A DNA stretch of 40,349 nucleotides from Deltaproteobacteria bacterium (lineage in GTDB: Bacteria; Desulfobacterota; DSM-4660; Desulfatiglandales; Desulfatiglandaceae): assembly GCA_019309145.1 (NCBI GenBank), contig JAFDGR010000006.1, positions 1-40,349 on the forward strand. The letters are read 5' to 3'. The position numbers and the translations under genes were made by a program. Below the pieces are notes generated by a model that was not told the origin of the DNA, ran no database searches, and saw only the letters and a program-made list of their open reading frames with translations. Of the stretch, positions 19,262 through 36,888 are shown piece after piece. Numbering within the stretch: the first letter of the stretch is position 1; every line of letters starts with the position of its first letter.

Positions 19262-21016
19262 TCAGGAAAGAGGAACGCCCTCCACGCTCCAGTTTCGCTG
19301 CCGGTAATACTCCTTCAGGGAATTCTCAAATACCGCCCGATCAAGAGTCTCCTTGTGTTCCCCAACCGGCTCCTTGAAAAACCGCTCCGGCAGGCAGTCA
19401 TCAGCCGCTGACAGCCCTTCCCGGAGGTTAAACATGCGTGTGGCATCCACCACCGATGACGTCATCTTCCTCAAGGCTTCCTGATCCAGGTCCAGGCCGG
19501 TAGTCACTGACACGATCCTGGAAAGCTCCTCCCAGGGATAGAGGTCGCGGTAGAACCTGCACACAATGAGCATGTCATGAAGGACAAGGCGGTCTTCGAA
19601 ATCCAGGAATATTTTCACCTGCTCCTCGATGCTCTTCCCGTCAAGCATGCCGGTCACCTCCGCCTTATAAAAGGTCGTCCGCAGATGACAGGCACCCCGG
19701 GGTGACGTGGCATAGGCAAGCCCCATACCTTTCAACCCTCTCGGATCATACCCGGCTGGTTCGAGCCCCTTCACGTGAATGGCGATATCCTCCATACCCC
19801 ATTCCCTGGCAGCGTGCCGGATGCCTTTACAAAGGACTGCACCCAGCCCCCGTGCGTTTGCAATGTCCTGTAACAACAATGCCACCACGTCAGGATCACC
19901 ATACGGGACCTTCTCAGAAATCTTTCCCATTTCCGATGCCTCCATGGCAAAGGCACACAGGTTTCCCGCGCTGATGGTATCCACACCCAAGCGATCGCAC
20001 ACATCATTCAGGTAGGCGATCTCTCGCAGGTCCCTGATGAGGCAAAGCCCCCCAAACGAGTAAATGGTTTCATATTCCGGGCCCTCAATCGTAAGCCCCG
20101 TGTGCCTGCCGTCCTGGACTTTCGAGAGTTTGCCGCACGCCATGAAGCACCTGGAACATGCCTTGGGACTGGGTTTCAACTGGTCCTGCATCCGCTCCGC
20201 ACTCAAGTGCTCCCAGCCTTCAAGCGTCCCCTCATGCCAGTACCTGGTCGGAAACGCGCCGAGGGAATTGGTCAGCCCCACCATCATGGGGGTCCCGAAG
20301 TTCCGGTACGCCTCAACACCCTTGTTCCCTTTGCCTGCCGCCATAACTTTTTTGACGAAGGCGTCAAGGCTGTCAGGACCAGCCATCTCCCTTTGCTGTT
20401 CCCCGTGAAAGGCCAGGGCCTTGACATTCTTGGCCCCCAGCACAGCTCCCACACCCGTCCTCCCGGCGGAACGCCAGTAATTGTTTTCCACCACCGCAAA
20501 GGTGACTTTGTTCTCCCCTGCCGGGCCAATGGAAAGAATGCCACATTTTGGTATTCCCAGTTCATCCTTGACCGTGTCTTCGGTTTCATACGTGTCCCTG
20601 CCCCAGAGGTGTTGCGCATCATGGAACGTCACTCCCTGGTCACTGATGTCAAGATATACCGGCTCATCAGAACGGCCATTCAGCACAAAGGCGTCATACC
20701 CGCACCTGCTCATGTGTTCGGACACATGGCCTCCTGAATAGGATTCGGAAAACAACCTTGTCTGGGGCGATTTGGTAAAAAGACCATAGCGGCTTGAACC
20801 AAAAATCCGGGTATCGCTGACGGGCCCGAGGGCGAGAATAACCAGGTTTTCAGGCGCAAGAGGGTCCACTCCTTCCGGGTTCCTTTCAAGAAGCAGCCGC
20901 GTGGCAAGACCCTTTCCTCCCAGGGTCTTTTGCAGGGTATCATCATCCATGTCTTCTGCGTGAAAGGTCCTCTCGGGAAGATCAATCCATAACACCTTAT
21001 TGAAAAAGCCCTTCAT
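19262..21016 (-). CDS. Aldehyde ferredoxin oxidoreductase (tungsten type), stand-alone
   Basis: A 584-residue AOR: the N-terminal pterin-binding domain has GGKGLATRLLLE and GPVSDTRIFGSSRYGLFTKSPQT. The 4Fe-4S ligands are C287, C290 and C294 (CSRCFMAC) plus probably C486, and DRLGVDT (341-347) is the family pterin-contact motif. AORs oxidise aldehydes to acids and reduce ferredoxin, using a bis-pterin tungsten cofactor. It is the last gene of the polyamine operon, four bases after the acyl-CoA synthetase. I infer succinate semialdehyde as a possible substrate from the neighbouring GABA-type aminotransferase; this is not shown by the sequence. No signal peptide; cytoplasmic. Confidence 0.9.
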   Translation of the reverse strand: MKGFFNKVLWIDLPERTFHAEDMDDDTLQKTLGGKGLATRLLLERNPEGVDPLAPENLVILALGPVSDTRIFGSSRYGLFTKSPQTRLFSESYSGGHVSEHMSRCGYDAFVLNGRSDEPVYLDISDQGVTFHDAQHLWGRDTYETEDTVKDELGIPKCGILSIGPAGENKVTFAVVENNYWRSAGRTGVGAVLGAKNVKALAFHGEQQREMAGPDSLDAFVKKVMAAGKGNKGVEAYRNFGTPMMVGLTNSLGAFPTRYWHEGTLEGWEHLSAERMQDQLKPSPKACSRCFMACGKLSKVQDGRHTGLTIEGPEYETIYSFGGLCLIRDLREIAYLNDVCDRLGVDTISAGNLCAFAMEASEMGKISEKVPYGDPDVVALLLQDIANARGLGAVLCKGIRHAAREWGMEDIAIHVKGLEPAGYDPRGLKGMGLAYATSPRGACHLRTTFYKAEVTGMLDGKSIEEQVKIFLDFEDRLVLHDMLIVCRFYRDLYPWEELSRIVSVTTGLDLDQEALRKMTSSVVDATRMFNLREGLSAADDCLPERFFKEPVGEHKETLDRAVFENSLKEYYRQRNWSVEGVPLS

Positions 21017-21020
21017 ATCC

Positions 21021-22580
21021 TTACTCCTCGTATCTCACATATTTGTCGCTCAGGCCTTTCTTGTAGATCTTGCCTGAACCCGTGCGGGGCAATGCCGGAA
21101 GGAATTCCACTGATTTCGGCGCCTTGTACCGCGCAAGGTCCTTTTTACAAAAATCAATGAGATCCTTTTCCGAGACATCCATCCCGTCCTTCAGGACCAC
21201 ACAGGCATGGACCGCCTCACCCCATTTCTCATCCGGAATGCCGATGACCGCCGCTTCCAGCACGGCCGGATGGCTGTAAAGGACATTTTCCACCTCGGTG
21301 GAATAGACATTTTCCCCACCGGTTACAATCATGTCCTTTTTTCGGTCCACGATGTTTACATATCCTTCGCTGTCTACCACAGCAAGGTCCCCGGTGTAAA
21401 GCCAACCGTTGCGGATGCCCTTTTCCGTTTCTTCCGGAAGGTGCCAGTACCCGGGCGTCACACTCTCACCTCTCACAACAATCTCTCCCACTTCTTTTCC
21501 ATCCCATGCCACTTCCCGGCCGTCCTCCTTTACCACCTTGAGGTCCACGAACAAAACGGGTCTCCCTGTTGCGGCCTTGAAGCGAAACCGCTCCTCCTCT
21601 GTGCGCGATTGCAGGGAGCCTTTCAGCAGGGACATGGTCAAATAGGGGCTCGTCTCGGTCATTCCGTAGGTCTGTACATAGTCGCACCCGAATGCATCCA
21701 TGATCTTTCGCACCACCTCAGGGGCGATGGGGGCCCCGCCGCTAAGCATGAGCCGGAGTGAAGGAAACGCGGCCTGTTGGATGGCAGGATCGTGTACCAT
21801 CAGGTTGAGCATGGTCGGGATCATGTTGGTGAGGGTGACCTTCTCCCGCTGCATGACCTCGATGACCGCCCCGGAACTGAACTCAGGGACCATCACATGG
21901 GTGCCGCCGACCCACGTGACCGCCCAGGTAGCCCAGGCATCGGCCAGGTGAAACATGGGCGCCGCGTGAAGCCAGACATCTTCATCCGTCATCTTGAGTT
22001 CCGCGATGGTTCCCAGGGAATGATACGCCACGTTCCGGTGGGTCAGGATAACTCCTTTCTGGCGCCCCGTGGTCCCGCTCGTGTAATAGAGCTGGGCCAC
22101 ATCATCCTCCTGAATCTCCGTCTCAGCCGGAGTATCTGCTCCCGACACAAGGAGGGTTTCAAGACTGGTTTCCCCGGCCGGAACAGTTTCTTTCTCAGTC
22201 CAGTAAGCCCTGACAGGGGTATCGAGGCGTTCAATGGCTTCCTTGATAATCGAGTAAAACTTCGGCTGTCCGATCAATGCAACAGCTCCTGTATCCTCCA
22301 GAATGAATGCGATTTCCCGCGGGGAGAGGCGGTAATTCAAGGGGCACAGGATCGCGCCCATGACCGCGGCGGCAAAATACGCTTCCAGGAAATAATGACA
22401 ATTCTGGTGGCATATGGCCACCCGGTCACCCTTTCCAATGCCTTCATGCTGCAGGCAGGCCGCAAGCCGGGATACCCTTCGCGCAAATTCCCGGTACGTA
22501 AATCGATGTTCACCACACACCACCCCAATCTTGTCCGGGTACAAACGATTCACCCGCTCAAGCAACGATCCCAGTTTCAT
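21021..22580 (-). CDS. AMP-forming acyl-CoA synthetase
   Basis: A 519-residue member of the ANL superfamily. It shows the P-loop-like YYTSGTTGRQKGV, the TYGMTETSP motif, YTGDLAVVDSEGY, DRKKDMIVTGGENVYSTEVE and the C-terminal PRTGSGKIYKKGL with the catalytic lysine. It activates a carboxylic acid with ATP to an acyl-AMP and then to a CoA thioester. The acid cannot be read from sequence; by general resemblance it is nearest the fatty acid CoA ligases. Its place between the aminotransferase and the AOR suggests the product of GABA breakdown (succinate or 4-hydroxybutyrate), which is inference. It lies four bases before aor and 15 after gabT, in one operon. Confidence 0.87.
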   Translation of the reverse strand: MKLGSLLERVNRLYPDKIGVVCGEHRFTYREFARRVSRLAACLQHEGIGKGDRVAICHQNCHYFLEAYFAAAVMGAILCPLNYRLSPREIAFILEDTGAVALIGQPKFYSIIKEAIERLDTPVRAYWTEKETVPAGETSLETLLVSGADTPAETEIQEDDVAQLYYTSGTTGRQKGVILTHRNVAYHSLGTIAELKMTDEDVWLHAAPMFHLADAWATWAVTWVGGTHVMVPEFSSGAVIEVMQREKVTLTNMIPTMLNLMVHDPAIQQAAFPSLRLMLSGGAPIAPEVVRKIMDAFGCDYVQTYGMTETSPYLTMSLLKGSLQSRTEEERFRFKAATGRPVLFVDLKVVKEDGREVAWDGKEVGEIVVRGESVTPGYWHLPEETEKGIRNGWLYTGDLAVVDSEGYVNIVDRKKDMIVTGGENVYSTEVENVLYSHPAVLEAAVIGIPDEKWGEAVHACVVLKDGMDVSEKDLIDFCKKDLARYKAPKSVEFLPALPRTGSGKIYKKGLSDKYVRYEE

Positions 22581-22595
22581 ACGTTCTTCCCTATT

Positions 22596-23897
22596 CTACC
22601 TGGACAACTTGCTCAGACCTTCGTCAAGGATGGCAAGGCCCTTTTCCAACTGGCCCTTTTCAATGGAAAGAGGCATGAGAGCCCTGATCACATTGCCGAA
22701 ATTCCCGCAGGAAAGGAGAATCAGCCCCCTCTCAAACGCGAGCTGTACGAGCTTTTTTGCCTCATCAGCGGCCGGTTCCTTTGTTTTTCGGTCCTTCACC
22801 AGTTCCAGGGCCAGCATGGGTCCCAGGCCCCGCACCTCACCGATAATGTCATATTTTTCCTTGAGCTGGTCAAAGGCAAGCAGCACTTCCTGTCCCAGTT
22901 TCCTCCCCTTTTCTACGAGGTTCTCTTCTTCAAGGGTCTCAAAAACTGCAAGAGCCGAGACGCAAGATAAGGGATTGCCCCCATAGGTCCCCCCCAATCC
23001 CCCAACATGCGGCGCATCCATGATCTCGGTCTTTCCCGTGACCGCGCTCAGGGGCATGCCGGCGGCCAGGGACTTGGCGGAAAGGATCATGTCCGGTTCA
23101 ACTTCAAAATAGTCCGAGGCGAACAAATATCCGGTCCTGCCCATGCCGGACTGGATTTCATCCATGATGAAAAGGATACCGTTCTCTTCGCAGATCTCCT
23201 TCACCCTCTTGAAGTAGTCCCTAGGGGGAATGATGAAGCCCCCTTCTCCCTGGACCGGCTCGGCGATCACCGCGGCAACCTGATCGCCTGAAACCTGGTT
23301 TACAAAAAAGTCGTTCAGGGCCTCGGCACAGCGAAGATCGCAGCTCGGATAGATCTTGCCATAGGGGCACCGATAGCAGTAGGCAAAGGGCATCCGATAC
23401 ACTTCCGGCGCGAAAGGACCGAATCCCCATTTGTACGGCTTCACCTTGCTGGTGAGAGTCATCCCGAGCAGGGTCCTCCCGTGAAAGGCATTTTCAAAAG
23501 CAATCACCGCGGGACGTTTTGTGTAATACCGCGCTATTTTTACCGCATTTTCCACGGCCTCGGCCCCGCTGTTGGCGAACATGGTCATCTTGGGAAAATC
23601 ACCCGGCGTCACCTCGTTGAGCTTCTTGGCGAGATCAATGTACGGCTCATACATGACCACGTGAAAGCAGGTGTGGATATACCTTTCCGCCTGTTCCCGT
23701 ATGGCATCCACCACTTTCCGGGCGCAGTGACCCACGTTTTCCACCCCGATTCCGCCGGCAAAGTCTATATATTCATTCCCCTCCACGTCCTTGATTACCG
23801 CCCCTTCGGCTTCCTTGACAAACAAAGGAAGAATATTAAACACCCCTTTCGGGACATGCTTTTCCCGCAACTTTGTCAGTTCTTCAGTACTTCTCAT
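22596..23897 (-). CDS. gabT: Class III aminotransferase, probable 4-aminobutyrate aminotransferase
   Basis: A 433-residue PLP enzyme: NSGAEAVENAVKIAR binds the phosphate, D246 (IMDEIQSGMGRTG) contacts the pyridine nitrogen, and K275 in SAKSLAAGMPLSAV is the Schiff-base lysine. The overall layout is that of the GabT group. It would pass the amino group of GABA to 2-oxoglutarate, giving succinate semialdehyde. A cysteine-rich insert (C174, C177, C186, C190; YCYRCP then CDLRC) is present; mammalian GABA transaminase has a C-x2-C iron-sulfur site, so a metal role is possible. GGGAGG precedes the start. Other omega-amino acids are possible substrates. Confidence 0.87.
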   Translation of the reverse strand: MRSTEELTKLREKHVPKGVFNILPLFVKEAEGAVIKDVEGNEYIDFAGGIGVENVGHCARKVVDAIREQAERYIHTCFHVVMYEPYIDLAKKLNEVTPGDFPKMTMFANSGAEAVENAVKIARYYTKRPAVIAFENAFHGRTLLGMTLTSKVKPYKWGFGPFAPEVYRMPFAYCYRCPYGKIYPSCDLRCAEALNDFFVNQVSGDQVAAVIAEPVQGEGGFIIPPRDYFKRVKEICEENGILFIMDEIQSGMGRTGYLFASDYFEVEPDMILSAKSLAAGMPLSAVTGKTEIMDAPHVGGLGGTYGGNPLSCVSALAVFETLEEENLVEKGRKLGQEVLLAFDQLKEKYDIIGEVRGLGPMLALELVKDRKTKEPAADEAKKLVQLAFERGLILLSCGNFGNVIRALMPLSIEKGQLEKGLAILDEGLSKLSR

Positions 23898-24006: not shown

Positions 24007-25059
24007 TTAATGCGACTTTACCATGGTCCATGCCTGGTCAACAATGCGAGTATCTTTGCCCAGGTCTTTGGTGAATTGCAAGGTTTTCATGATTTCCGGG
24101 GTTGGCCACACACCGGGGTTGGCCAAATCTTCCTTGTTCAGGAAGGGCATGGCAGCCTCATTGGGGGTGGCAAAATGGTTGTAGTTGGAAAGCCACGCCC
24201 CGATCTTGGGCTCAAGAATCCAGTTGATCCACTTGTGTGCCGCATCCGGGTTGGGCGCCTTGGCAGGGATGCACATACTGTCCAGCCAGATCTCGCTTCC
24301 CTCTTTCGGCACCACAAACCCCAGGTGTTTCGGATCTTCCGCCATGGCCTGGATCGCGTCCCCATTGTAAACGATGGCAGCCGCAGCCGCGTTGGCTACC
24401 ACATCATTTTTTCCGCCGACCCCCCCCTTGAAGCCCAGGCACGAAGTTCTTTTCTTTGTCCTGATCAGCAGATCGGATGCTGCCTTGAGCTCTTTCGGAT
24501 TGATGCTGTTGAAATCATACCCCAGGTAGCGGAGAGTAATGCCCATCATCTCCCGCACAGAATCAAGAAGGCAGAAAGGTCCCGGGTCCTTCTTGGGATC
24601 AAAAAGGATGGACCAGGATTTGGCGTCCGCGTCCGTGATCCTGTCTTTCCGGTACATGAGGCCGACCGTCCCCCACTGCCAGCCAACCGAGAACTTGTTT
24701 GTCGGATCAAAGCTCGGGCCCCTGAACTTGGCGCCCAGGTTTTTCAGGTTGGGGATCTTGGAATGATCCAGGGGCTTGAGCAGTCCCAGCTTGATCATGC
24801 TGGGCATGATATAATCGGAGGGCACGACGATATCATAGAGGCTGACCCCACCCGACTGCAGTTTGGCCAGCATTTCTTCATTTGATTCATACAGGTCAAG
24901 TTTCACCTTGATTCCTGTAGCCTTTTCAAAGGCCTTCGGCATGTTGACCTCGTCCATGTACTCGGACCAGATGAAAATCTTGAGTACCTTGTCCGCCGCA
25001 AAGGCTGTGCCCGCGAAAGCGATAAAAAATGCCACCAGTAATACCGTCAGTTTTTTCAT
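24007..25059 (-). CDS. potD: Polyamine-binding periplasmic protein PotD-like
   Basis: A 350-residue protein with a Sec signal peptide (MKKLTVLLVAFFIAFAGTAFA, cleaved near residue 21) and the PotD/PotF fold: KIFIWSEYMDEVNMPKAFEKATGIKV, YDIVVPSDYIMPSMIKLGLL and the C-terminal EAMPFL and LGKDTRIVDQAW blocks. It captures putrescine, spermidine or a related amine such as agmatine in the periplasm. It closes the potABCD block; its own Shine-Dalgarno AAAGGAG is strong, as usual for the most abundant component. Confidence 0.92.
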   Translation of the reverse strand: MKKLTVLLVAFFIAFAGTAFAADKVLKIFIWSEYMDEVNMPKAFEKATGIKVKLDLYESNEEMLAKLQSGGVSLYDIVVPSDYIMPSMIKLGLLKPLDHSKIPNLKNLGAKFRGPSFDPTNKFSVGWQWGTVGLMYRKDRITDADAKSWSILFDPKKDPGPFCLLDSVREMMGITLRYLGYDFNSINPKELKAASDLLIRTKKRTSCLGFKGGVGGKNDVVANAAAAAIVYNGDAIQAMAEDPKHLGFVVPKEGSEIWLDSMCIPAKAPNPDAAHKWINWILEPKIGAWLSNYNHFATPNEAAMPFLNKEDLANPGVWPTPEIMKTLQFTKDLGKDTRIVDQAWTMVKSH

Positions 25060-25203: not shown

Positions 25204-25992
25204 CTATTTGCGCGTAAAACGTTCCATGCCGATAATCAGGATGACCGTGGCCAGCAGGACGAGGGTGGACAGGGCATGGATCTGGGGTGTTACCCCCCGT
25301 CGTACCGCCGCAAAGATAAAAAGCGGCAAGGTCACCGAATCAGGACCCGCGGTAAAAAAGCTGATCACGAAATCATCCAGGGACAGGGTGAACGCCAGCA
25401 TGGCCCCTGCCACGATCCCCGGGATGAGTAACGGCAGCATCACCCTCCTCAGGAGATACGGGGTAGTAGCAAAGAGATCACGAGCGGCTTCCTCCACGTC
25501 TCTCCCGATGCTCACGAGACGGCTCCGCACCACCAGGGCCACAAAAGAGACCTGAAAGGTAATGTGCCCGATGATCATATTCAGAAGCCCCGGTTCGAAA
25601 AGGGAAGACAGCATGCGCAGGAGCCCGAAGGCCACCACCAGGGCGGCAGCGAAGATAATGTCAGGGACCACCACCGGCAGGTGCAGGAGCAGGTCAAGGG
25701 TTGTACCCACCTTCTTTGTCCAGGGAAACCGGTCCATGCCGATGGCCAACGCGGTTCCCAGAATAGTCGCGATCACCGTGGAAACGACTGCCAGAACCAG
25801 GCTGTTCCATGCGGCGCTTAGAATAACTTCATTATGGAACAACTTGACATACCAATCCAGGGTAAATCCGCGCCAGGCCAGGCCGTAGCGCGTGGCATTC
25901 ACTGAAAAGACGGCCACCGCCAACAAAGGGATATAAAGGAATGCAAGGGTAACCATGGCAAGGCTGGTTACCGCCGGGTGAAGCTTTCTCAT
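25204..25992 (-). CDS. potC: Polyamine ABC transporter, permease PotC-like
   Basis: A 262-residue membrane protein with about six transmembrane segments and the EAA loop DVEEAARDLFATTPYLLRRVMLPLLIPGIVAG, placing it in the PotC/PotI group. TLSLDDFVISFFTAG is a further PotC hallmark. It forms the channel with PotB. Its start overlaps the potB stop by four bases (ATGA). Confidence 0.93.
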   Translation of the reverse strand: MRKLHPAVTSLAMVTLAFLYIPLLAVAVFSVNATRYGLAWRGFTLDWYVKLFHNEVILSAAWNSLVLAVVSTVIATILGTALAIGMDRFPWTKKVGTTLDLLLHLPVVVPDIIFAAALVVAFGLLRMLSSLFEPGLLNMIIGHITFQVSFVALVVRSRLVSIGRDVEEAARDLFATTPYLLRRVMLPLLIPGIVAGAMLAFTLSLDDFVISFFTAGPDSVTLPLFIFAAVRRGVTPQIHALSTLVLLATVILIIGMERFTRK

Positions 25993-26894
25993 ACGAACTG
26001 CATCTCCTTGTGCTTCCTCCGATACAGATAGAGGCTCACCATGGTGAGCAGCATCAGTCCCATGCTTACGGCAGCACCAAAAGGCCAGTCACGGCTGGCA
26101 CCGAACTGCTGTTCGATCAGGTTCCCCACCAGCATGTACTTGGCACCTCCCAAAAGGTCAGGGACCACAAACATCCCCATGGCGGGGACAAAGGTCAAAA
26201 TAATTCCCACGGAAAGGCCGGGCATGGTCTGCGGCAGGATGGCCTGCATGAAAACCCTCGTCTTTGACGCATAGAGGTCCTGGGCCGCTTCCACCAGGGA
26301 CCAGTCCAGCCGCTCCACACTCGAGTAGAGCGGCAGGGCGACAAAGGGGAGGAAAATGGTCACCATGCCGATATAGACTGCAAAGGCATTGGGGTAGAGC
26401 GGCGTGTTGGGCGGGATGAACCCCAGGAGATTCGCGATCCTGGCAGGAGGAAATTCCGGCGCAAGAATCAAGAACCAGGCATAGGTTCGGATAACCATAT
26501 TGGTCCAGAAAGGAATAATCACCAGCATGAGCCAGAGATACCGGGACCTCTCCGGGCGGCTGCAGATAAAAAAACATAAAGGGTAGGACAAGATAACGGC
26601 GACAATGCTGGTCACAAAGGCCACCCAGACGGACCGCCACAGGATCATGATATAGTCGGCGGTCCACCCAAACACGCTGAACCCCAGGAGCCGTTTGTAA
26701 TTTTCAATGGTGAACGACCACTCAAGCTGTCCATAGGAACCGCGGGTGGCGAAACTGACCACGACCAGGACCAGTCCCGGGAGGACAAGAAACAGCAGGA
26801 TCCAGAGCATCCCCACTCCAAGGAATTGAATCCCTCGTTTTGTGAGACGCCGCTGGGTCGTCAGTTCGCCGTACCAGATAATGAGCTTATTCAT
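25989..26894 (-). CDS. potB: Polyamine ABC transporter, permease PotB-like
   Basis: A 301-residue membrane protein with about six or seven transmembrane segments. The EAA loop LVEAAQDLYASKTRVFMQAILPQTMPGLSVG and the preceding PFWTNMVIRTYAWFLIL are typical PotB/PotH sequences. GAKYMLVGNLIEQQFGASRDWPFGAA completes the match. The longer N-terminal tail (about 25 residues before the first membrane segment) is unremarkable. It overlaps potA by eight bases and potC by four, so the block is translationally coupled. Confidence 0.93.
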   Translation of the reverse strand: MNKLIIWYGELTTQRRLTKRGIQFLGVGMLWILLFLVLPGLVLVVVSFATRGSYGQLEWSFTIENYKRLLGFSVFGWTADYIMILWRSVWVAFVTSIVAVILSYPLCFFICSRPERSRYLWLMLVIIPFWTNMVIRTYAWFLILAPEFPPARIANLLGFIPPNTPLYPNAFAVYIGMVTIFLPFVALPLYSSVERLDWSLVEAAQDLYASKTRVFMQAILPQTMPGLSVGIILTFVPAMGMFVVPDLLGGAKYMLVGNLIEQQFGASRDWPFGAAVSMGLMLLTMVSLYLYRRKHKEMQFV

Positions 26895-27927
26895 CCAATA
26901 TCACCAAAGCCTCTGGAGGAAACTCAAGCCAAACTTCGTCTCCGACCTCATAGTGGCGGTGAGCCGCGGTCCGGACCCGCAGGGGTCCGGGATCAAGCCA
27001 GAGATCAAGATCCGTGCCCCGGTAAATTGCTTCCCTGATCTGCGCCCTGGTGCCATTGACGGTAGCCGGACTTTCCGTGATACGCATTCGCTCAGGCCGA
27101 ATGGCCACGGTCCCCTCCTCCCATTCTGGTGCACGTTTCAGGACAAAAAAACCGAGATCGGTCTCAAGCCCTCCATTTTTCTTCCTTCCCTGGAGCAAAT
27201 TCGCCGCCCCGAGAAACTCGGCAACAAACCGGTTTTTGGGTTGTTCGTATACATCTTTCGGGGAACCGAACTGTATGATCCTCCCCTGGTTCATCACGGC
27301 AATACGATCCGAAACCACCATAGCCTCTGATTGATCATGGGTAACCAGGATAAAGGTCTGGCCGAGTTTTCGCTGGAGTCTCCGCAGTTCCACCTGGACC
27401 TGGGCGCGCAGTTTCGCATCCAGCGCGGACATGGGTTCATCCAGCAGCAGGACCTTGGGTTCATTGACCAAGGCGCGGGCCAGGGCTACCCGCTGCTGCT
27501 GCCCGCCTGAGAGCTGGTGAGGATGCCGGTCGGCCATGTCCTGGAGGCCCAGCATTTCAAGGCGTTTGCTGACACGGCTTTTCACTTCATTTTTTGGGAA
27601 TTTTCGGGACCTGAGACCAAAGGCGACATTTTCAAAGATGGTGAGGTGAGGAAAAAGGGCATAACTCTGGAAGACCGTATTGACCTGCCGCTTGGTAGCA
27701 GGAAGAGACGTGATATCCTGTCCACCCAGGATAACTTCCCCTGAATCAGGCAGCTCCAGGCCCGCGATGATGCGCAGGAGGGTCGTCTTGCCGCACCCGG
27801 AAGGACCAAGAAGGGTAAAAAATTCCCCTTCATGCACGTCCAGTGAAACCTCTTTCAGGGCCTCAACCGGGCCAAAGCTCTTGTCTATGCCCTTGACCGA
27901 AAGCCCGGTATTTCTTGTCGTCTCCAT
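26887..27927 (-). CDS. potA: Polyamine ABC transporter, ATP-binding protein PotA-like
   Basis: A 346-residue ATPase with Walker A GPSGCGKTT (41-49), signature LSGGQQQRVALARAL (about 139-153), Walker B VLLLDEPMSALD (about 159-170) and a C-terminal TOBE domain (from about 270). The Q-loop VFQSYALFPHLTIFENVAFGL is typical of PotA. It drives polyamine uptake through PotBC. First gene of the importer block, 27 bases after the agmatinase gene. Confidence 0.93.
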   Translation of the reverse strand: METTRNTGLSVKGIDKSFGPVEALKEVSLDVHEGEFFTLLGPSGCGKTTLLRIIAGLELPDSGEVILGGQDITSLPATKRQVNTVFQSYALFPHLTIFENVAFGLRSRKFPKNEVKSRVSKRLEMLGLQDMADRHPHQLSGGQQQRVALARALVNEPKVLLLDEPMSALDAKLRAQVQVELRRLQRKLGQTFILVTHDQSEAMVVSDRIAVMNQGRIIQFGSPKDVYEQPKNRFVAEFLGAANLLQGRKKNGGLETDLGFFVLKRAPEWEEGTVAIRPERMRITESPATVNGTRAQIREAIYRGTDLDLWLDPGPLRVRTAAHRHYEVGDEVWLEFPPEALVILDE

Positions 27928-27954: not shown

Positions 27955-28896
27955 TCACCTTTTATCAAGCGCGCTGCTCATGAGTTCCAGAACACAACGT
28001 GCGGCAAGATGTGCTGTCACATTTCCCCGGTCGTCGAGAAAGGGGTTCATCTCTACCACATCGAAACCGATAATCTCTCCCCGCTCCGCGATGATCTGCA
28101 GTACATCTGAAAAATGCTCGAAAAAGAGCCCGCCCGGCTCGGGAGTTCCGGTCCCGGGAGCAAGGGACGGATCAAAAAAATCGATATCAACGCTGATATA
28201 GTATTCCCCCTCTTCAAAAAAAACCGGATCAGGCCTTGTGAGCCATGTTCTCAGCTCCCGTGCGGTCAACGTCTTCACGCCCTTTTCTTCTATCCACGAA
28301 ATGTCCTGCCCCGAATTCGTCAAGCCCCTTACCCCGATAATAGTGATGGACTCTGCGAGTTCCTGCTCCATGATCAGCAGGACGGGACTCCCGTGGGTGA
28401 AGGAGCTGTAACTGATCCTGTCACAATCCACATGGGTGTCAAAATGGACATAGTGAATCTTTCTCCCCTTCAATGCGCGCACCACGGGGAAGGTGATGGA
28501 GTGATCCCCGCCCACAATGGCAGGTACTGCTCCGGCCTCCAGGATCGATGTTACCGTGCGTGTTATGATGGTCCAGTTTTTTTCCAGGCACAGGGGCTCG
28601 ATCTGGACGTCTCCTGCATCCACTACCTTTTTCCCCGCAAGAATCCACTTCCGTCTGTCCGCGTCATAGAACCGGCCTTCCACTCCCTCGTAACTGTAAA
28701 ACATGGAGGCATCACGGATCGCCCGGGGGCCGAACCTGGTCCCCGGGCGGTAGGTGGTCCCTTCATCATAGGGGATGCCGAGGAATACAGCGTCAACGTC
28801 CCGGCCTTCCTCCCATAGGGGATACCCGGCGAACGTCGCGATCCCCGTGAAGGGGAGGTTTTCTTCCGGAGGTGAAAAGGGTGATGGTGGAAACAT
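27955..28896 (-). CDS. speB: Agmatinase / ureohydrolase of the arginase family
   Basis: A 313-residue ureohydrolase with all Mn ligands in place: H132 in GGDHSITFP, D153, H155 and D157 in HFDTHVDCD, and D237 and D239 in SVDIDFFDPSLAPGTG. The opening GIPYDEGTTYRPGTRFGPRAIR is agmatinase-like. It would split agmatine into putrescine and urea. A guanidinobutyrase (giving GABA and urea) is the main alternative, but the putrescine aminotransferase upstream favours agmatine. I chose the ATG at 28896 because AAAGGA lies eight bases before it; the frame also runs to 28977 but that would overlap the ferredoxin gene. Confidence 0.88.
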   Translation of the reverse strand: MFPPSPFSPPEENLPFTGIATFAGYPLWEEGRDVDAVFLGIPYDEGTTYRPGTRFGPRAIRDASMFYSYEGVEGRFYDADRRKWILAGKKVVDAGDVQIEPLCLEKNWTIITRTVTSILEAGAVPAIVGGDHSITFPVVRALKGRKIHYVHFDTHVDCDRISYSSFTHGSPVLLIMEQELAESITIIGVRGLTNSGQDISWIEEKGVKTLTARELRTWLTRPDPVFFEEGEYYISVDIDFFDPSLAPGTGTPEPGGLFFEHFSDVLQIIAERGEIIGFDVVEMNPFLDDRGNVTAHLAARCVLELMSSALDKR

Positions 28897-28927
28897 TTTG
28901 TATATCCTTTCTTTGCTATCAAATAAA

Positions 28928-29479
28928 TCAAAAATCTCCCATATAGGCTGCGGTCTTTGGCACCCGAACCGCTTCATCCAAGACCTTTTCGGCCAGGGCC
29001 AATCGTTTTTCCCCGGGTGATCCTTTTTTGATGCGATGTTTCATCTGCCCAGCCCGCAAAGCCACCGCGACCCTGTCCGGCTCCTTGAAAACAAGGGCAC
29101 CGAAGTGACACTCAGCAACGCAAGCTGGACTGCCTCCGCACAGGTCACACTTGTATGCCTTGCCCGATGTGTACTGTTCGATCATGCCGTAGGGACAGGC
29201 GGTCACGCATTCCCCGCACCCGGTGCATCGGCCGGCGTCCACGACCACAATACCTCGTTCGTTCCGGAAGATTGCCTTTTCAGGGCAGGCCTTCAGGCAC
29301 TCGGCATTGGGGCACTGAAAACAGATGTTGGGCACAGAATACCCCTCAAGGGGAAAATTGCTTACTTTTATGCGGGCCTTCGACGGCATGAACATCCCTT
29401 CCTTGACCGCCGAACAGGCATACACGCACCGGTTGCAGCCGGTACAGAGATTGGGTATTGCGAGCAGGTATTTTTCCAT
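28928..29479 (-). CDS. Four-cluster ferredoxin-type protein, probable electron acceptor of the AORs
   Basis: A 183-residue protein with 16 cysteines in four groups: C12-15-18-22, C53-56-61-65, C85-88-91-95 and C111-114-120-124, enough for four 4Fe-4S clusters. The pattern is that of the HycB / DmsB-type polyferredoxins and of the AorA partner known in some AOR complexes. No signal peptide, so cytoplasmic. It starts 17 bases after the fusion gene and likely takes its electrons. The final 50 residues are helical and carry no cysteine. GTGGAGG lies before the ATG. Confidence 0.88.
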   Translation of the reverse strand: MEKYLLAIPNLCTGCNRCVYACSAVKEGMFMPSKARIKVSNFPLEGYSVPNICFQCPNAECLKACPEKAIFRNERGIVVVDAGRCTGCGECVTACPYGMIEQYTSGKAYKCDLCGGSPACVAECHFGALVFKEPDRVAVALRAGQMKHRIKKGSPGEKRLALAEKVLDEAVRVPKTAAYMGDF

Positions 29480-29496
29480 TTATTCCTCCACGATTT

Positions 29497-32400
29497 CTAC
29501 AAATTTTCCAGACCCAGTTCCTGAAGCTTTTCCTCCCTGGGCCTGCCTTCTTCGTCCCAGCCCCGGAGATGGTAGTAGAGTGCTTTCATCTCCTCCAGAT
29601 CTTCCTGGCTCAGGACCCTGCCCGCATGGGGCCCTCCTCTCAGGGCCTTTTCAGTCAATTTTCTTGAGAGGGTATCATCGACAGCGGTGAACCCGGCCCG
29701 CAGATTAAAAACCCGGATCAGGTTCCAAATGCGTTCGCCCGCCGTGAGCAGGTCCTTTTCAGAGACCTGGCGTCCCAGCCCGGCACCAAGCAGTTCCGCC
29801 ATGATCCCCCGGTCCACAGATCCCCAGAAATCACAGAGGCACAGAGACCACTTGGCAGCGTTGGTGTTCTGGCCGTCGATGACATCCCGGGCCATTGCCT
29901 TCAGTTTGAAGGGATCTTCTGCAAAGATAGTAAATGCCCGCAGATGACACGCGCCGCGCTCGCTGGTGGCATAGGCAAGACCCATCCCATAGCTCCCCCT
30001 CGGGTCATAGGCGGGCATTTCAAGCCCCTTGGAGTGGGCCGCCGCGTCACCCTGGCCCAGCTTCTCCGCCAGCCTTGCCGCGCCCAGTGCAAGGTCCTTT
30101 CCCCGTGGCGTGGACAAGCGGGCAATTTCCTCAATAATTTTCAGATATCCTTCCGATTGACCGAATCCAAGGTTATAGTCATGCACACCCGATTCGGTCA
30201 TCTCCATGGCCAGGGCAATGGTCGCGCCGGCAGACATGGTGTCAAGGCCCAGATCATCACACAGCCGGTTAAACCGCATGACCTGTTCCAGGTCGTTTAT
30301 TTCGCAATTGGAGCCGCCCATGCACAGGGTCTCATATTCCGGGCCCTCTACCTGGACACCGTTTACCGAGGTGAAGTTACCGCAACCCAGGGGACACGAT
30401 GCGCAGGAACGATCGCCGATCTTTACCGCGTTTATGGCTTCGGAATCAAGGCGGTTTCGGCGGGGATTCACGCCTGCTGAATAATTCCTGGTCGGATGGA
30501 TTCCCATCTCATTGGTGACATCCATGAGGACGGGGGTGCCTTCATTCTTGGCCCACATATTGGCGTCGGTCAGGAGGTTGGACTCCTTGTATCGCGTTAC
30601 CTTGCCCCAGAACATCCCCATGTCCGCCACCTGCACGCCGCCGGTTCCTCTGACCGCAATGGCCTTCAGGTTCTTGGAGCCAAAAAGCGCCCCGGCTCCG
30701 GCCCGCCCCATCTGTCGATAGGCTTCAGAACCCACGCAGGCATATGAAACCATGTTTTCGCCCGCAGGACCGATCGACAGAGTCTTTATCCCGTGCCCCA
30801 TCTCCGTGGTCAGCCACCTTTCCGTCTCAAAAATACCTTTCCCGTGAACAGGACCGGCATTTTCCAGGCTTACCCTGTCATCCTCGATGCGAAGGTACAC
30901 GGGATGATCGGCTTTCCCGGTGACCACAATACCGTCGTAGCCCGCAAATTTAAGCTCCGGTCCAAACGCCCCTCCCACGTTGGACTCAAACATGGTTCCC
31001 GTGTGGGGTGACTTGGATACCAGACATGTCCGTGAAGAGGTGGGGACAAGGGTCCCGCACAAGGGCCCGGTCATGATCACCAGCCCATTTTCCGGAGACA
31101 GCGGCTCAATCTTCGGATCAACCAGGTCAAAGAAATACCGTACCGCCAGGCCCCACCCCCCGATGTATTCATTGAGCCATTCTTTATTGGTTTGCCTGCT
31201 CTCGATCTTCCCGGTGGTCAGGTCCACAAACAACACCCGGCCGGCATAGAGATGCATTGACTCCTTTTGCCTCGGCAACTCGATCGTCTTGAAAACGTCT
31301 TCCAGCCTGTTCAGGACCTCGTCGAGGATTTCCCGGGGGATATTGAGGGCCGGCTCAAACCGGATAGTCTTGGCATTGGTCAGGGTTCCCGCGGTAATAA
31401 CCCCTCTGGAAAACAGGCCTGACGCGACCTTGTAGCCGATACCGTCGGTCGGGAATTCCATCCCGATGAGCAGTCCAAGGCCTCTTGCCTGAGCCAGCAC
31501 CCCGGGATAGCGCTCCTGCAACTCGCGCAGGTGTTTCAATACATACTCGCCCTTACTCTTTGCCTGGCCTGCCAGGTCCTCTTCCAGGAGCACGGTGATG
31601 GCCGCCAGGGCCGACGCGCAGGCGAGCGGATTTCCACCGGTCGTGGTGGTGTGAATGAAGGGATTGGGCTCCATGCATTCCCATACTTTCGCGGTGGACA
31701 GAAAGGCTGACATGGGGACCACTCCCCCGCCAAGGGCCTTCCCCAGGCACAAAATATCCGGGGCCACACCCCAGTGATCAAGCCCGAAGATTCTGCCGGT
31801 CCTGCCCATGCCCGTCTGGACCTCATCCGCGATCAGCAGCACCCCATAATGGTTGCAGAGTTCACGCAGGCGCGGCCAGTACTCGTCAGGAGGAACCACG
31901 GCCCCCGCCTCTCCCTGGACCGGTTCCGCCACCACGGCTGCTATGCCGTCCCCCACAGCCTTTGCCGCGGCGAGCGCGCTCTCCACCGCATCCGCATCAC
32001 CGAACGGCACATGCCTGACTCCTTCCAGGAGGGGCAGGAGCGGCTCACGAAATATCTTTTTCCCCATGAGGGAGAGGGAACCCAGGGTCTTGCCGTGAAA
32101 TCCCTTGAGCATGGCGATGAATCCCTTCTTTCCGGTGAAGAGCTTCGCGAGCTTCATGGCCCCTTCCACCGCCTCGGTCCCCGAGTTCGCAAAGAAGCCG
32201 TATTGGATCTTTCCCGGGGTGATCAGGGCCAGCACCTTTGCCAGTTGGGCACGGAGGGGGTCGAGCATCTCCTGGCTATACTGGGGTGAGCGGTCAAGCT
32301 GTGCCTTGACCGCCGCGATAATCTTCGGGTGCCGGATCCCATAGGAATAAAGGCCGAAACCGCCGAGGAGATCCAGGAACTCCCGGTCCAGAGCGTCCAC

Positions 32401-32661
32401 CAGGATGGATCCGTGTCCGGTCCACTCGGTCACGGCGAAACTCGTGGCCTCAGTCACGGACTTGCGGTAGTCCAGGAACCCTTTGTTGATATGGTCCCGG
32501 AAATTGCGGACCGTTTTCAGGGCAATCTCTTTTCGGAGCTCCAGCGGGGTTTCATGGGGCGGGGTGAGGATGGTATCCACCATGAAACGAGCCTCTTTCA
32601 GGGCCGCGTCAATATCCCTGCCTTTGTAATCGCTCCTCAGATCTTCATCAAAATCACGCAT
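29497..32661 (-). CDS. Putrescine aminotransferase fused to aldehyde ferredoxin oxidoreductase
   Basis: One uninterrupted frame of 1054 residues joins two complete enzymes. Residues 1 to about 465 are a class III aminotransferase close to E. coli putrescine aminotransferase (YgjG/PatA): GFLDYRKSVT, LLGGFG, MLDPLRAQLAKVLALITPGK, NSGTEAVEGAMKLAK (from about 159), D279 (ADEVQTGMGRTG), lysine K308 (LGKALGGGV), AGTLTNAKTIR. From about M469 a full AOR begins (MHLYAGRVLFVDLTTGK) with cluster cysteines C753, C756 and C760 (CASCPLGC) and C941 or C943, and the motif DDLGLDT. It would turn putrescine plus 2-oxoglutarate into 4-aminobutanal and oxidise that to GABA with ferredoxin. The ATG at 32661 follows GGAGA by seven bases; two upstream ATGs (32676, 32667) are less well placed. 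The linker is almost nil. Confidence 0.88.
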   Translation of the reverse strand: MRDFDEDLRSDYKGRDIDAALKEARFMVDTILTPPHETPLELRKEIALKTVRNFRDHINKGFLDYRKSVTEATSFAVTEWTGHGSILVDALDREFLDLLGGFGLYSYGIRHPKIIAAVKAQLDRSPQYSQEMLDPLRAQLAKVLALITPGKIQYGFFANSGTEAVEGAMKLAKLFTGKKGFIAMLKGFHGKTLGSLSLMGKKIFREPLLPLLEGVRHVPFGDADAVESALAAAKAVGDGIAAVVAEPVQGEAGAVVPPDEYWPRLRELCNHYGVLLIADEVQTGMGRTGRIFGLDHWGVAPDILCLGKALGGGVVPMSAFLSTAKVWECMEPNPFIHTTTTGGNPLACASALAAITVLLEEDLAGQAKSKGEYVLKHLRELQERYPGVLAQARGLGLLIGMEFPTDGIGYKVASGLFSRGVITAGTLTNAKTIRFEPALNIPREILDEVLNRLEDVFKTIELPRQKESMHLYAGRVLFVDLTTGKIESRQTNKEWLNEYIGGWGLAVRYFFDLVDPKIEPLSPENGLVIMTGPLCGTLVPTSSRTCLVSKSPHTGTMFESNVGGAFGPELKFAGYDGIVVTGKADHPVYLRIEDDRVSLENAGPVHGKGIFETERWLTTEMGHGIKTLSIGPAGENMVSYACVGSEAYRQMGRAGAGALFGSKNLKAIAVRGTGGVQVADMGMFWGKVTRYKESNLLTDANMWAKNEGTPVLMDVTNEMGIHPTRNYSAGVNPRRNRLDSEAINAVKIGDRSCASCPLGCGNFTSVNGVQVEGPEYETLCMGGSNCEINDLEQVMRFNRLCDDLGLDTMSAGATIALAMEMTESGVHDYNLGFGQSEGYLKIIEEIARLSTPRGKDLALGAARLAEKLGQGDAAAHSKGLEMPAYDPRGSYGMGLAYATSERGACHLRAFTIFAEDPFKLKAMARDVIDGQNTNAAKWSLCLCDFWGSVDRGIMAELLGAGLGRQVSEKDLLTAGERIWNLIRVFNLRAGFTAVDDTLSRKLTEKALRGGPHAGRVLSQEDLEEMKALYYHLRGWDEEGRPREEKLQELGLENL
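31258..31268 (-). promoter_or_regulatory. Internal Shine-Dalgarno at the fusion joint
   Basis: AAAAGGAG (31268-31261) sits three bases before the in-frame ATG (31257-31255) that begins the AOR half. It encodes the last residues of the linker (Q-K-E-S). This is what remains, or still works, of a separate AOR ribosome binding site, so a free AOR may be made alongside the fusion. Spacing is a little short. Confidence 0.5.
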
Positions 32662-32672
32662 AAACATTCTCC

Positions 32673-32762
32673 TCATGTCAGGTTTAGACGCTTGGCTTTG
32701 TATGAACCCTCCATCTCTGGTGGAGGATCCGGATAGGTTTCACCAATCCGGGGAAGCTTCAT
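32673..32762 (-). CDS. Small protein of 29 residues between tetR and the fusion gene
   Basis: ATG at 32762 is preceded by GGGAG at good spacing; the frame runs 29 codons to a TGA that overlaps an ATG of the next frame (ATGA) and lies just before the Shine-Dalgarno of the fusion gene. The peptide begins MKLPRIGETYP, has a PDPPPEMEG stretch and ends in a basic KAKRLNLT. No membrane segment or cysteine. It may be a leader peptide for translational coupling or a small partner protein. A hairpin with arms CCGGAT/ATCCGG (32729-32751) lies inside it. I do not recognise a family. Confidence 0.45.
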   Translation of the reverse strand: MKLPRIGETYPDPPPEMEGSYKAKRLNLT

Positions 32763-32789: not shown

Positions 32790-33392
32790 TCACTCGGACC
32801 TTCCCGTCAGCAGAGTGACAGCGAGCTGTTTCGCGGTCTCTGCAAACTCTTGGAAGGGCCGGTCTTCTGAAAGAAAATGGGCATGAAATTCCAGCCCCTC
32901 AATGAGGGTCACGATCATGTCGGCAGCACCGCGCACATCGTCCACCTTGACGATCCCTGTTGCTCTGAAACGTTCCAGTTCACCCACCAGGTGGTCTCTC
33001 AACCGCTTGATCATTTCTTCAAAACGTTTCCGGACCGCCCGGTTCCTGAAGCTGAGATAATAGAACCCGAAGTGCACCCCGGGATCCACGGTCCTGGACC
33101 ATTCAAGAGAAAAGAGGGTATCCATCAATGCCCGGAAACGCTCCCGGGGGTCTTCGATGTGGTCAAATTGCAGGTATTCAGGCGCCTCATACCGGTCGAT
33201 GAGTGCCTTGACCAGTTCAAGGGTCATATTTTCTTTTGTCTGGAAATAATGGATAATCAGGCTGGGGTGGATACGCATGCGTTTGGCGATCTTTCCAATG
33301 GATGCCCCTTCAAACCCTTCTTCAATCAACACCTGGTAGTAGTTTTCAAGGATTTCAGGTTTCCGTACTTCCGCCTTCTGGTTCTTGCGCAT
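32790..33392 (-). CDS. TetR-family transcriptional regulator of the polyamine operon
   Basis: A 200-residue regulator. Residues 11-58 form a TetR helix-turn-helix (ILENYYQVLIEEGFEGASIGKIAKRMRI HPSLIIHYFQTKENM is the classical pattern), and the C-terminal helices resemble the BetI-type ligand domain. GGGAGAG lies six bases before the start. It is the first gene on the minus strand ahead of the small ORF and the fusion gene, with no terminator between, so it probably heads the operon and senses a polyamine or an intermediate. An operator-like palindrome overlaps its own promoter, suggesting autoregulation. Ligand unknown. Confidence 0.88.
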   Translation of the reverse strand: MRKNQKAEVRKPEILENYYQVLIEEGFEGASIGKIAKRMRIHPSLIIHYFQTKENMTLELVKALIDRYEAPEYLQFDHIEDPRERFRALMDTLFSLEWSRTVDPGVHFGFYYLSFRNRAVRKRFEEMIKRLRDHLVGELERFRATGIVKVDDVRGAADMIVTLIEGLEFHAHFLSEDRPFQEFAETAKQLAVTLLTGRSE

Positions 33393-33464: not shown

Positions 33465-33813
33465 GAAAAAAAGAAAGGCGACCCTCTCAAATGAAGATTT
33501 TTCGTTATGTCAATATTGATATATCTAACTAGCTGATTTTTTGCTGAAAAAATCCTTGACAACCCTCATCAATAGTGTTTTTCTAACATGCATCCGACCA
33601 AGAATAGTGGCACCTTTTTGCATCACATCCAGTAAAACATATGCATCCTTCGAGGGAATGGAATGCACAAGCCATAAACGGCGGCCTTCTTGTTGAAGAG
33701 CGGCCAAAAAATTCACAAAAAAACGAATTCTTATCATTCATCAATCTTTGCCAGGTTTTGCTGTTTCAGGGTATTTTCATTTATCCATCAACGCATTGCA
33801 GAAAGGAGGATCT
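33465..33813. other. Upstream region of the formate dehydrogenase operon
   Basis: A dyad GATTTTTT-GCTG-AAAAAATC (33535-33554) lies just before a TTGACA box (33556-33561) whose -10 partner is poor. Downstream, AATAGTG occurs twice (33571, 33603), each followed by TGCATC (33589, 33619), and TGCATC occurs a third time at 33642. A palindrome TCAATATTGA is at 33510-33519. These could bind a regulator of fdhA. I see no gene here; a 70-codon minus-strand frame looks like noise. Confidence 0.4.
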
Positions 33814-36800: not shown

Positions 36801-36888
36801 GGCGAACCTGCTGACCCCTTCCACCGGCGACCCGAATACCAGGATTCCTGAAACCAAGGCCTTCATGGTCAATGTGAGAAAGATATAA
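33814..36888 (+). CDS. fdhA: Formate dehydrogenase alpha subunit, selenocysteine-containing, Tat-exported
   Basis: A single gene of 1025 codons, read through an in-frame TGA at 34387-34389 (codon 192). The flanking residues HQARI-U-HSATVAALAESFGRGAMTNHW match FdnG-type enzymes exactly where selenocysteine lies. The N-terminus has a Tat signal (RRGFLK at 5-10, hydrophobic core, AHAQ-like end), then the 4Fe-4S motif C50, C53, C57 ... C88, the molybdopterin domains and a C-terminal dinucleotide-binding domain. It oxidises formate in the periplasm with a Mo- or W-bis-pterin. AGGAGG precedes the ATG at 33814. An ORF caller without selenocysteine splits this gene in two. No sel genes are in the window. 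Confidence 0.95.
34387..34417 (+). promoter_or_regulatory. Selenocysteine UGA codon and candidate bacterial SECIS hairpin
   Basis: After the TGA at 34387-34389 an imperfect stem-loop can form from CTG (34400-34402) with CAG (34415-34417), an extra C-G pair and bulges inside, around a GGCTCT loop. Its distance from the UGA (about 10 bases) fits the E. coli fdhF element, which has a similar AGGUCU loop. The fold is a by-eye proposal; the UGA itself is well supported by the protein context. Confidence 0.6.

Follow-up and report, generated by a model that had tools for sequence, protein, structure and literature searches.

A fused aminotransferase–AOR gene

In a 40,349-nucleotide stretch of DNA from a Deltaproteobacteria bacterium (GCA_019309145.1, contig JAFDGR010000006.1; the whole stretch is called the window below), a single gene joins a putative putrescine aminotransferase (PatA) to the catalytic large subunit of an aldehyde oxidoreductase (AOR) of the tungsten-containing oxidoreductase (WOR) type. 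The minus-strand open reading frame (ORF), 29497..32676, encodes 1059 amino acids with no internal stop, and residue numbers of the fused protein follow this ORF throughout. The ATG at 32661 is likely to be a better start than 32676, since an AGGAG ends 7 bases before it and most of the full-length relatives are 1054–1058 residues long. The features of the gene are as follows.

29497..32661, minus strand: fused gene for putrescine aminotransferase and AOR/WOR large subunit (ORF from 32676, with the ATG at 32661 as the likely start)
31294..32421, minus strand: Aminotran_3 domain (Pfam, residues 86–461), with the pyridoxal phosphate (PLP) lysine Lys313
31252..31278, minus strand: linker LPRQKESMH (residues 467–475), containing Met474, the former AOR start
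30643..31242, minus strand: AFOR_N domain (Pfam, residues 479–678)
29509..30558, minus strand: AFOR_C domain (Pfam, residues 707–1056), with active-site residues Thr714, Glu782, Tyr890 and His911 and the 4Fe-4S cysteines Cys758, Cys761, Cys765 and Cys948, assigned by what we take to be the cysteine numbering of Pyrococcus furiosus AOR

The three domains are each nearly full length, and the sequence at the joint reads EDVFKTIE-LPRQKESMH-LYAG, with a linker of nine residues. A preliminary description of this DNA had put the start at 32661 and claimed an unbroken frame across the joint and two complete halves, all of which agrees with the start-site spacing, the lengths of the relatives and the domain matches, as well as with the continuity of the joint in other genomes.

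The best solved match to the N-terminal half is E. coli putrescine aminotransferase, YgjG/PatA (4uox and its constructs, 471 bits), a stand-alone, dimer-forming enzyme, whereas the window protein continues into a C-terminal AOR chain. The same half passes the NCBIfam model for putrescine aminotransferase (NF008570, 633.4 bits, cut-off 612). The available part of the YgjG structure paper names as pocket or PLP residues F91, Q119, G150, T151, F180, K183, E243, D271, V273, Q274, K300, F327, T332, Y402, L419 and R426 (PMC4244111), and when these are placed by eye on the window–YgjG alignment all 16 are identical in the window protein. Among the other fused proteins the exceptions are Y for F91 in five rows and P for T332 in G618, the row of G016 not covering the first six positions. 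Four of four GabT-type controls differ from PatA at F91, Q119, T151, K183, F327, Y402 and L419; a fifth, AT627, differs at Q119, T151, K183, F327 and L419, has a gap at Y402 and carries Y at F91, as some PatAs do.

For the C-terminal half, Pfam gives 255.5 bits for the N-terminal AFOR domain (PF02730) and 380.2 bits for the C-terminal one (PF01314). Among solved structures, 9mqx and P. furiosus AOR (1aor) match best, at 438 bits each, followed by 9g7j, Aromatoleum AorB (8c0z, 368 bits) and FOR (1b25). The active-site residues that a 2026 classification of WORs gives, in its available part, as Thr243, Glu313, Tyr427 and His448 of P. furiosus AOR (PMC13328260) correspond to Thr714, Glu782, Tyr890 and His911. 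These four, together with the cluster cysteines, are conserved in all 16 fused rows compared (that of G597 contains N and was left out), and the domain probably holds a tungsten-pyranopterin and one 4Fe-4S cluster. The earlier assignment of the second half as an AOR-family catalytic chain, and the claim that both halves keep their catalytic residues, thus hold.

Occurrence and history of the fusion

The preliminary description proposed looking for other proteins in which a class III aminotransferase is followed by an AOR, and on the genome sets that we searched in depth, all from the window's phylum, the fusion is present in 17 genomes. The query was a 432-residue stretch of the window protein spanning the joint; a limited number of candidates was scored per genome at cut-offs of 1e-58 to 1e-65, and distant fusions may be missed. 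The uninterrupted fusion occurs in three of 85 genomes of the window's own order (G000, G001 and G016), three of 395 drawn from the phylum (G000, G186 and G425), 13 of 291 drawn from the order of G186 and one of six from the order of G425, with none found by the joint search in the 55 genomes of the class of G241. These sets overlap, and a search of the window's class covered the same 85 genomes as that of the order. The distinct carriers are G000, G001, G016, G186, G425, G658, G613, G520, G564, G618, G597, G510, G591, G532, G511, G635 and G702, and across the joint the other 16 are 75–91% identical to the window. For G597 the count refers to the joint itself, as its AOR half runs into N, and neither its end nor its missing polyferredoxin was judged; contig ends truncate G016 and G564, and the ORF of G511 lacks the first part of the aminotransferase half. 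A scan of all GTDB with six exact peptide patterns, which detects close kin only, gave two fused matches, QMLQ01000242.1 (metagenome-assembled genome (MAG) B46_G9, Deltaproteobacteria) and JALSRD010000109.1 (a Desulfobacterales MAG), neither of which is added to the count of 17.

The fusion is real. The obvious alternative would be a misassembly, or the loss of a stop in a single genome whose two halves are still produced separately, and some features of the old AOR start fit it. Nine of the 17 carriers, including the window, retain the methionine of this start, and Shine-Dalgarno (SD)-like motifs lie within 18 bases 5′ of it in four: AAGGAG at 31261–31266 in the window, 3 bases before Met474, GAGG at 2 bases in G001 and at 12 bases in G425, and a well-spaced AGGAGG at 9 bases in G520. 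Rare start codons that could serve are found at the same place in G597 and G591 (CTG) and G186 (ATA). However, the frame is intact in 17 genomes, four of which are single-contig assemblies (G520, G618, G511 and G597), the methionine is lost in eight, seven have no ATG, GTG or TTG from four codons before to three codons after the LYAG start, and 13 have no SD-like motif before it. In addition, both halves are under purifying selection, with ratios of nonsynonymous to synonymous change (dN/dS) in seven pairs of 0.03–0.09 for the aminotransferase half and 0.085–0.164 for the AOR half. We therefore regard an artefact or one-genome accident as refuted with respect to the fusion itself, and as extremely improbable overall. 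The linker is also nearly constant in length, with nine residues in 16 carriers and ten in G510.

Several apparent fusions proved to be pairs of genes. The divergent matches in G171, G309 and G372 (35–39% identity) are separate, adjacent aminotransferase and AOR genes with a stop between them, and those in G627 (C6), G644, G638, G720 and G512 are likewise separate; the apparent divergent fusions in G709 and G540 were left out of that check. Tandem aminotransferase and AOR genes seem to form a module that recurs.

The unfused state and its REPLACEMENTS were seen as PatA with a separate orthologous AOR, with an AOR of another subfamily, or with an aminobutyraldehyde dehydrogenase, at loci that were chosen by query match and are examples, not frequencies. 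The first is found in the cluster of G241, which holds PatA as a gene of its own (77%), an AOR with 63% identity to the fused half, a polyferredoxin, two ureohydrolases (147.5 and 160.3 bits, below the agmatinase cut-off of 174.3) and a GABA (4-aminobutyrate) transaminase. A similar picture is seen in G755, where the same AOR, polyferredoxin, ureohydrolases and GABA transaminase occur and the PatA match (75%) lies about 1 kb before that of the AOR. Locus L070 (922–11413) also holds an unfused member of the clade of the fused AORs, together with its polyferredoxin, near Pot genes and an AguB-like hydrolase below its cut-off (226, cut-off 410); a gene of 343 residues there looks by eye like an acetylpolyamine deacetylase, without an NCBIfam match at 1e-40.

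In G512, G552, G715 and G720, PatA adjoins an AOR of another subfamily (28–31% identical to the fused AOR), a parallel pairing seen at L105 8757–11971, L102 7933–11151, L107 6723–10018 and L109 8624–11744. The PatA of G720 is 53% identical, and of five such more distant PatAs (51–54%) it is the only one directly adjoining an AOR; a gene of the aminobutyraldehyde dehydrogenase type (640) is also near. G727 carries two PatAs (72% each), one adjoining and the other one gene away from an aminobutyraldehyde dehydrogenase (NF010000 660 and 645, cut-off 615), and the first is also accompanied by AguB (457) and an AguA-like gene below its cut-off (327, cut-off 382). A PatA 64% identical to the aminotransferase half is found in a Pontiellaceae genome (Kiritimatiellota), in a Pot cluster with AguB (450), an AguA-like gene (374, cut-off 382), a GabT-like gene and an aldehyde dehydrogenase below the aminobutyraldehyde cut-off, while G627 has TetR, PatA and AguB with no adjoining AOR. 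These loci point to an oxidation of the aldehyde after PatA, a step for which at least three enzyme types seem to be used, one of them having become fused.

Trees were made by a quick method and carry a long-branch warning. The AOR tree places all 17 fused rows in a single clade (SH-aLRT 99), and the aminotransferase tree does so with the 13 unfused PatAs (100), apart from the fused ones. When three distant outgroup rows are included in the latter, the fused rows are not one clade (two changes), and G635 and G702 branch beside the unfused PatAs (SH-aLRT 95). The fusion likely had a single origin, though the trees do not fix the root and a fused gene may instead have split. The fused protein of G186, which lies outside the window's class, is 89% identical to that of the window across the joint, and in the window's own family the fusion is present in only three of 46 genomes, many of them incomplete, which suggests that it spread by horizontal transfer, or alternatively that MAG contigs were misbinned.

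Gene neighbourhood

On the minus strand, the fusion is preceded by a TetR-family regulator and followed by the genes listed here in order.

32790..33392, minus strand: TetR-family regulator, directly upstream of the fusion
28928..29479, minus strand: polyferredoxin with 16 cysteines and four cluster motifs, a small subunit of the WorS/AorA type
27955..28977, minus strand: agmatinase-like ureohydrolase (TIGR01230, 170.9 bits, cut-off 174.3)
26887..27927, minus strand: PotA-like ABC ATPase
25989..26894, minus strand: PotB-like permease
25204..25992, minus strand: PotC-like permease
24007..25059, minus strand: PotD/PotF-like polyamine-binding protein
22596..23897, minus strand: GABA transaminase (TIGR00700, 568 bits, cut-off 507)
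21021..22580, minus strand: acyl-CoA ligase
19262..21016, minus strand: AOR2, a second, separate AOR-family gene and candidate succinate-semialdehyde oxidoreductase

The polyferredoxin directly follows the fusion in 16 of the 17 genomes, and its 16 cysteines are conserved in all 21 aligned rows (16 from fused loci and five from unfused ones). According to the available part of the WOR classification, WorL with a four-cluster WorS and without a flavin adenine dinucleotide (FAD) subunit constitutes a Class II WOR, linked to ferredoxin, as in CbGOR and PfASOR (PMC13328260). The window resembles this layout in the Thr/Glu/Tyr/His and four-cysteine catalytic chain and in the adjoining 16-cysteine subunit, and no FAD subunit was found among the 20 window proteins scanned; it differs in the aminotransferase at the N-terminus of WorL, in Trp943 standing in place of an Asp, and in 4-aminobutanal as the expected substrate. 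Similarly, Aromatoleum AorABC (8c0z) has a catalytic chain, AorB, like the fused AOR half and, in the available part of a 2025 review of tungsten enzymes, a polyferredoxin-like subunit with four clusters, AorA (PMC12096430), though AorB is not fused to an aminotransferase and no counterpart of the FAD subunit AorC was found beside the window fusion.

The fused loci of relatives repeat much of this arrangement. G186 retains the gene order of the window as far as its contig reaches, at 78–92% protein identity gene by gene (L043/L064), and the ureohydrolase is also present at the fused loci of G001, G186, G425 and G532. In G635, G702 and G510 an agmatine deiminase takes its place (TIGR03380 587, 588 and 544, cut-off 382); in G510 it lies beyond PotA and PotB and is followed by AguB, the N-carbamoylputrescine amidase (455, cut-off 410). 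Neither ureohydrolase nor agmatine deiminase was seen in G016, G658, G618, G597 and G511, where some contigs end.

The GABA transaminase and AOR2, one gene apart in the window, adjoin each other in L068, L100, L101, L105, L109 and L118, a pairing that suggests ferredoxin-linked oxidation of succinate semialdehyde. A scan for regulatory signals gave 4 promoter-like sites where 5.9 were expected, which is uninformative on promoters, and 22 terminator-like sites where 11.9 were expected. Elsewhere in the window, a formate dehydrogenase alpha gene on the plus strand (33748–36888) is split by an in-frame TGA at 34387–34389 (ARI-U-HSATV), most likely a selenocysteine codon. The window's own genome, G000, has 29 places that match the fused protein, some of them pieces of one gene, and by this measure carries many paralogues of the AOR family and of class III aminotransferases.

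A candidate route from putrescine to GABA

We think it probable that the fusion works in nature as one enzyme with two activities in the anaerobic breakdown of putrescine, converting putrescine and 2-oxoglutarate to GABA and glutamate and passing electrons to ferredoxin. Each step is assigned because of the established chemistry of its family. The PLP half would convert putrescine and 2-oxoglutarate to 4-aminobutanal and glutamate, and the AOR half, together with the polyferredoxin, would oxidise 4-aminobutanal with water and two oxidised ferredoxins to GABA and two reduced ferredoxins, the electrons leaving through the adjacent four-cluster WorS-type subunit. GABA would then pass to the downstream GABA transaminase (GabT), giving succinate semialdehyde, and this perhaps to AOR2. 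From the fusion, its recurrence, the intact active-site residues and the gene cluster, all read from sequence, we infer the activities, the metal and ferredoxin as acceptor. The NF008570 match, the pocket residues, the recurrence of the fusion and the gene context in the window and in relatives, with its putrescine supply and GABA use, support the preliminary interpretation overall.

The amine might instead be agmatine or another, with the aminotransferase producing 4-guanidinobutanal, the AOR half 4-guanidinobutyrate and the ureohydrolase freeing GABA, as in a guanidinobutyrase route. Such a route would suit a ureohydrolase just below the agmatinase cut-off in the window, and two below it in G241. 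Though these scores leave room for it, the pocket residues are those of PatA, the fused genes of G635, G702 and G510 lie near agmatine deiminases above the cut-off, joined in G510 by AguB, enzymes that lead to putrescine, and the unfused Pontiellaceae PatA is also found with AguB above its cut-off and an AguA-like gene. Since two unrelated putrescine-yielding routes thus occur near the same fused enzyme, putrescine is favoured over agmatine, which we consider unlikely. It is far less likely still that the AOR half works backwards and supplies putrescine synthesis with 4-aminobutanal made from GABA; an AOR-family enzyme can reduce acids with low-potential donors, according to the available part of one report (PMC9295118), but the cluster is a catabolic set, with polyamine uptake, amine-releasing enzymes and a GABA transaminase.

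Several observations weigh against putrescine oxidation by a single bifunctional chain. The aminotransferase half misses the cut-off of TIGR03372, a narrower and stricter model of putrescine aminotransferase (490.1 bits, cut-off 658.65), although it passes NF008570 and keeps the 16 pocket residues, seven of which differ in all four GabT-type controls. The second pterin motif of the AOR half, presumably DxxGLC, carries Trp943 (29848–29850) instead of its Asp. The position is Trp in all 16 fused rows and in seven of eight unfused kin of the clade (Phe in one, with a ninth having no letter), whereas it is Asp in P. furiosus AOR and in all eight AORs of other groups. The ureohydrolase score in the window falls short of an agmatinase, and in G613, G591, G564 and G520 the polyferredoxin is followed by Pot genes with no amine-making enzyme between. 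Some free AOR chain could be made in carriers that keep the methionine or have an SD-like motif before the old start, for instance G520. The linker stretch, at 11 codons, offers too few sites to reveal selection, with dN/dS above 1 in one of seven pairs, and an AlphaFold model of the fused chain from an eight-row alignment (mean pLDDT 50.3, pTM 0.43) gave no usable geometry.

Why the two enzymes should be joined is a separate matter. Compared with oxidation linked to nicotinamide adenine dinucleotide (NAD), the gain would be low-potential electrons, and that of the fusion itself may be less loss of 4-aminobutanal to 1-pyrroline; that the fusion exists to hand on this cyclising aldehyde is the step with the least support. 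More tentatively, we can picture a channelled, energy-conserving machine, in which an aminotransferase dimer bears two tungsten oxidase arms, traps 4-aminobutanal ahead of its cyclisation and keeps the yield of oxidising it in the form of reduced ferredoxin, perhaps within conducting filaments like those of AorAB; this is possible, though on balance we doubt it. Alternatively, the halves may act independently, the fusion fixing only stoichiometry or co-regulation while 4-aminobutanal diffuses freely, a reading that concerns the reason for the fusion and is compatible with the reactions proposed. Close relatives of both halves are separate genes in one cluster in G241, and the AlphaFold model offers no structural evidence of a tunnel, though the near-fixed linker length over 17 genomes hints at, without proving, a geometric constraint. 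We take independent halves to be a quite plausible account, if not quite a probable one.

The preliminary description knew of no enzyme with this architecture, and no aminotransferase–AOR fusion is described in open-access titles and the beginnings of abstracts, among the matches listed. The terms aminotransferase, transaminase and putrescine occur 0 times in the WOR classification (PMC13328260), which uses “fused” once, for ModBC, and 0 times in the 2025 review (PMC12096430); fusion, fused and aminotransferase are absent from a 2019 paper on AOR (PMC6365974), and a survey of molybdoprotein domain fusions, in its available part, tabulates new fusions for DMSOR, SO and XO, not AOR (PMC6147048). 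The nearest precedent found, as far as the available part of its description goes, is the transaminase–thioester reductase PtTamH, which also has an N-terminal class III transaminase, a redox domain and a common aldehyde intermediate, but is reductive, NADH-dependent and biosynthetic, with the aldehyde flowing into the transaminase (PMC9594044). What is new is thus the covalent join, both enzymes and the Class II WOR layout being known. A functional likeness exists to PutA, which is likewise bifunctional and catabolic and passes on a semialdehyde that equilibrates with a pyrroline, though it combines a flavin dehydrogenase with an NAD aldehyde dehydrogenase and its domains are unrelated.

The recurrence of the fusion in other anaerobes makes it look like a real enzyme with a testable job. 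Covalent fusion to an aldehyde-making enzyme in 17 genomes is a firmer pointer than gene order alone to what one WOR group uses as its substrate, and provides a ready system for asking if an aldehyde prone to cyclise is channelled to a metal site. It also suggests a way for anaerobes to exploit a diamine with ferredoxin instead of NAD. If the channelled machine exists, this WOR group would gain a defined physiological role, and the fusion would be the first tungsten enzyme of polyamine breakdown, as far as found in the open-access literature searched.

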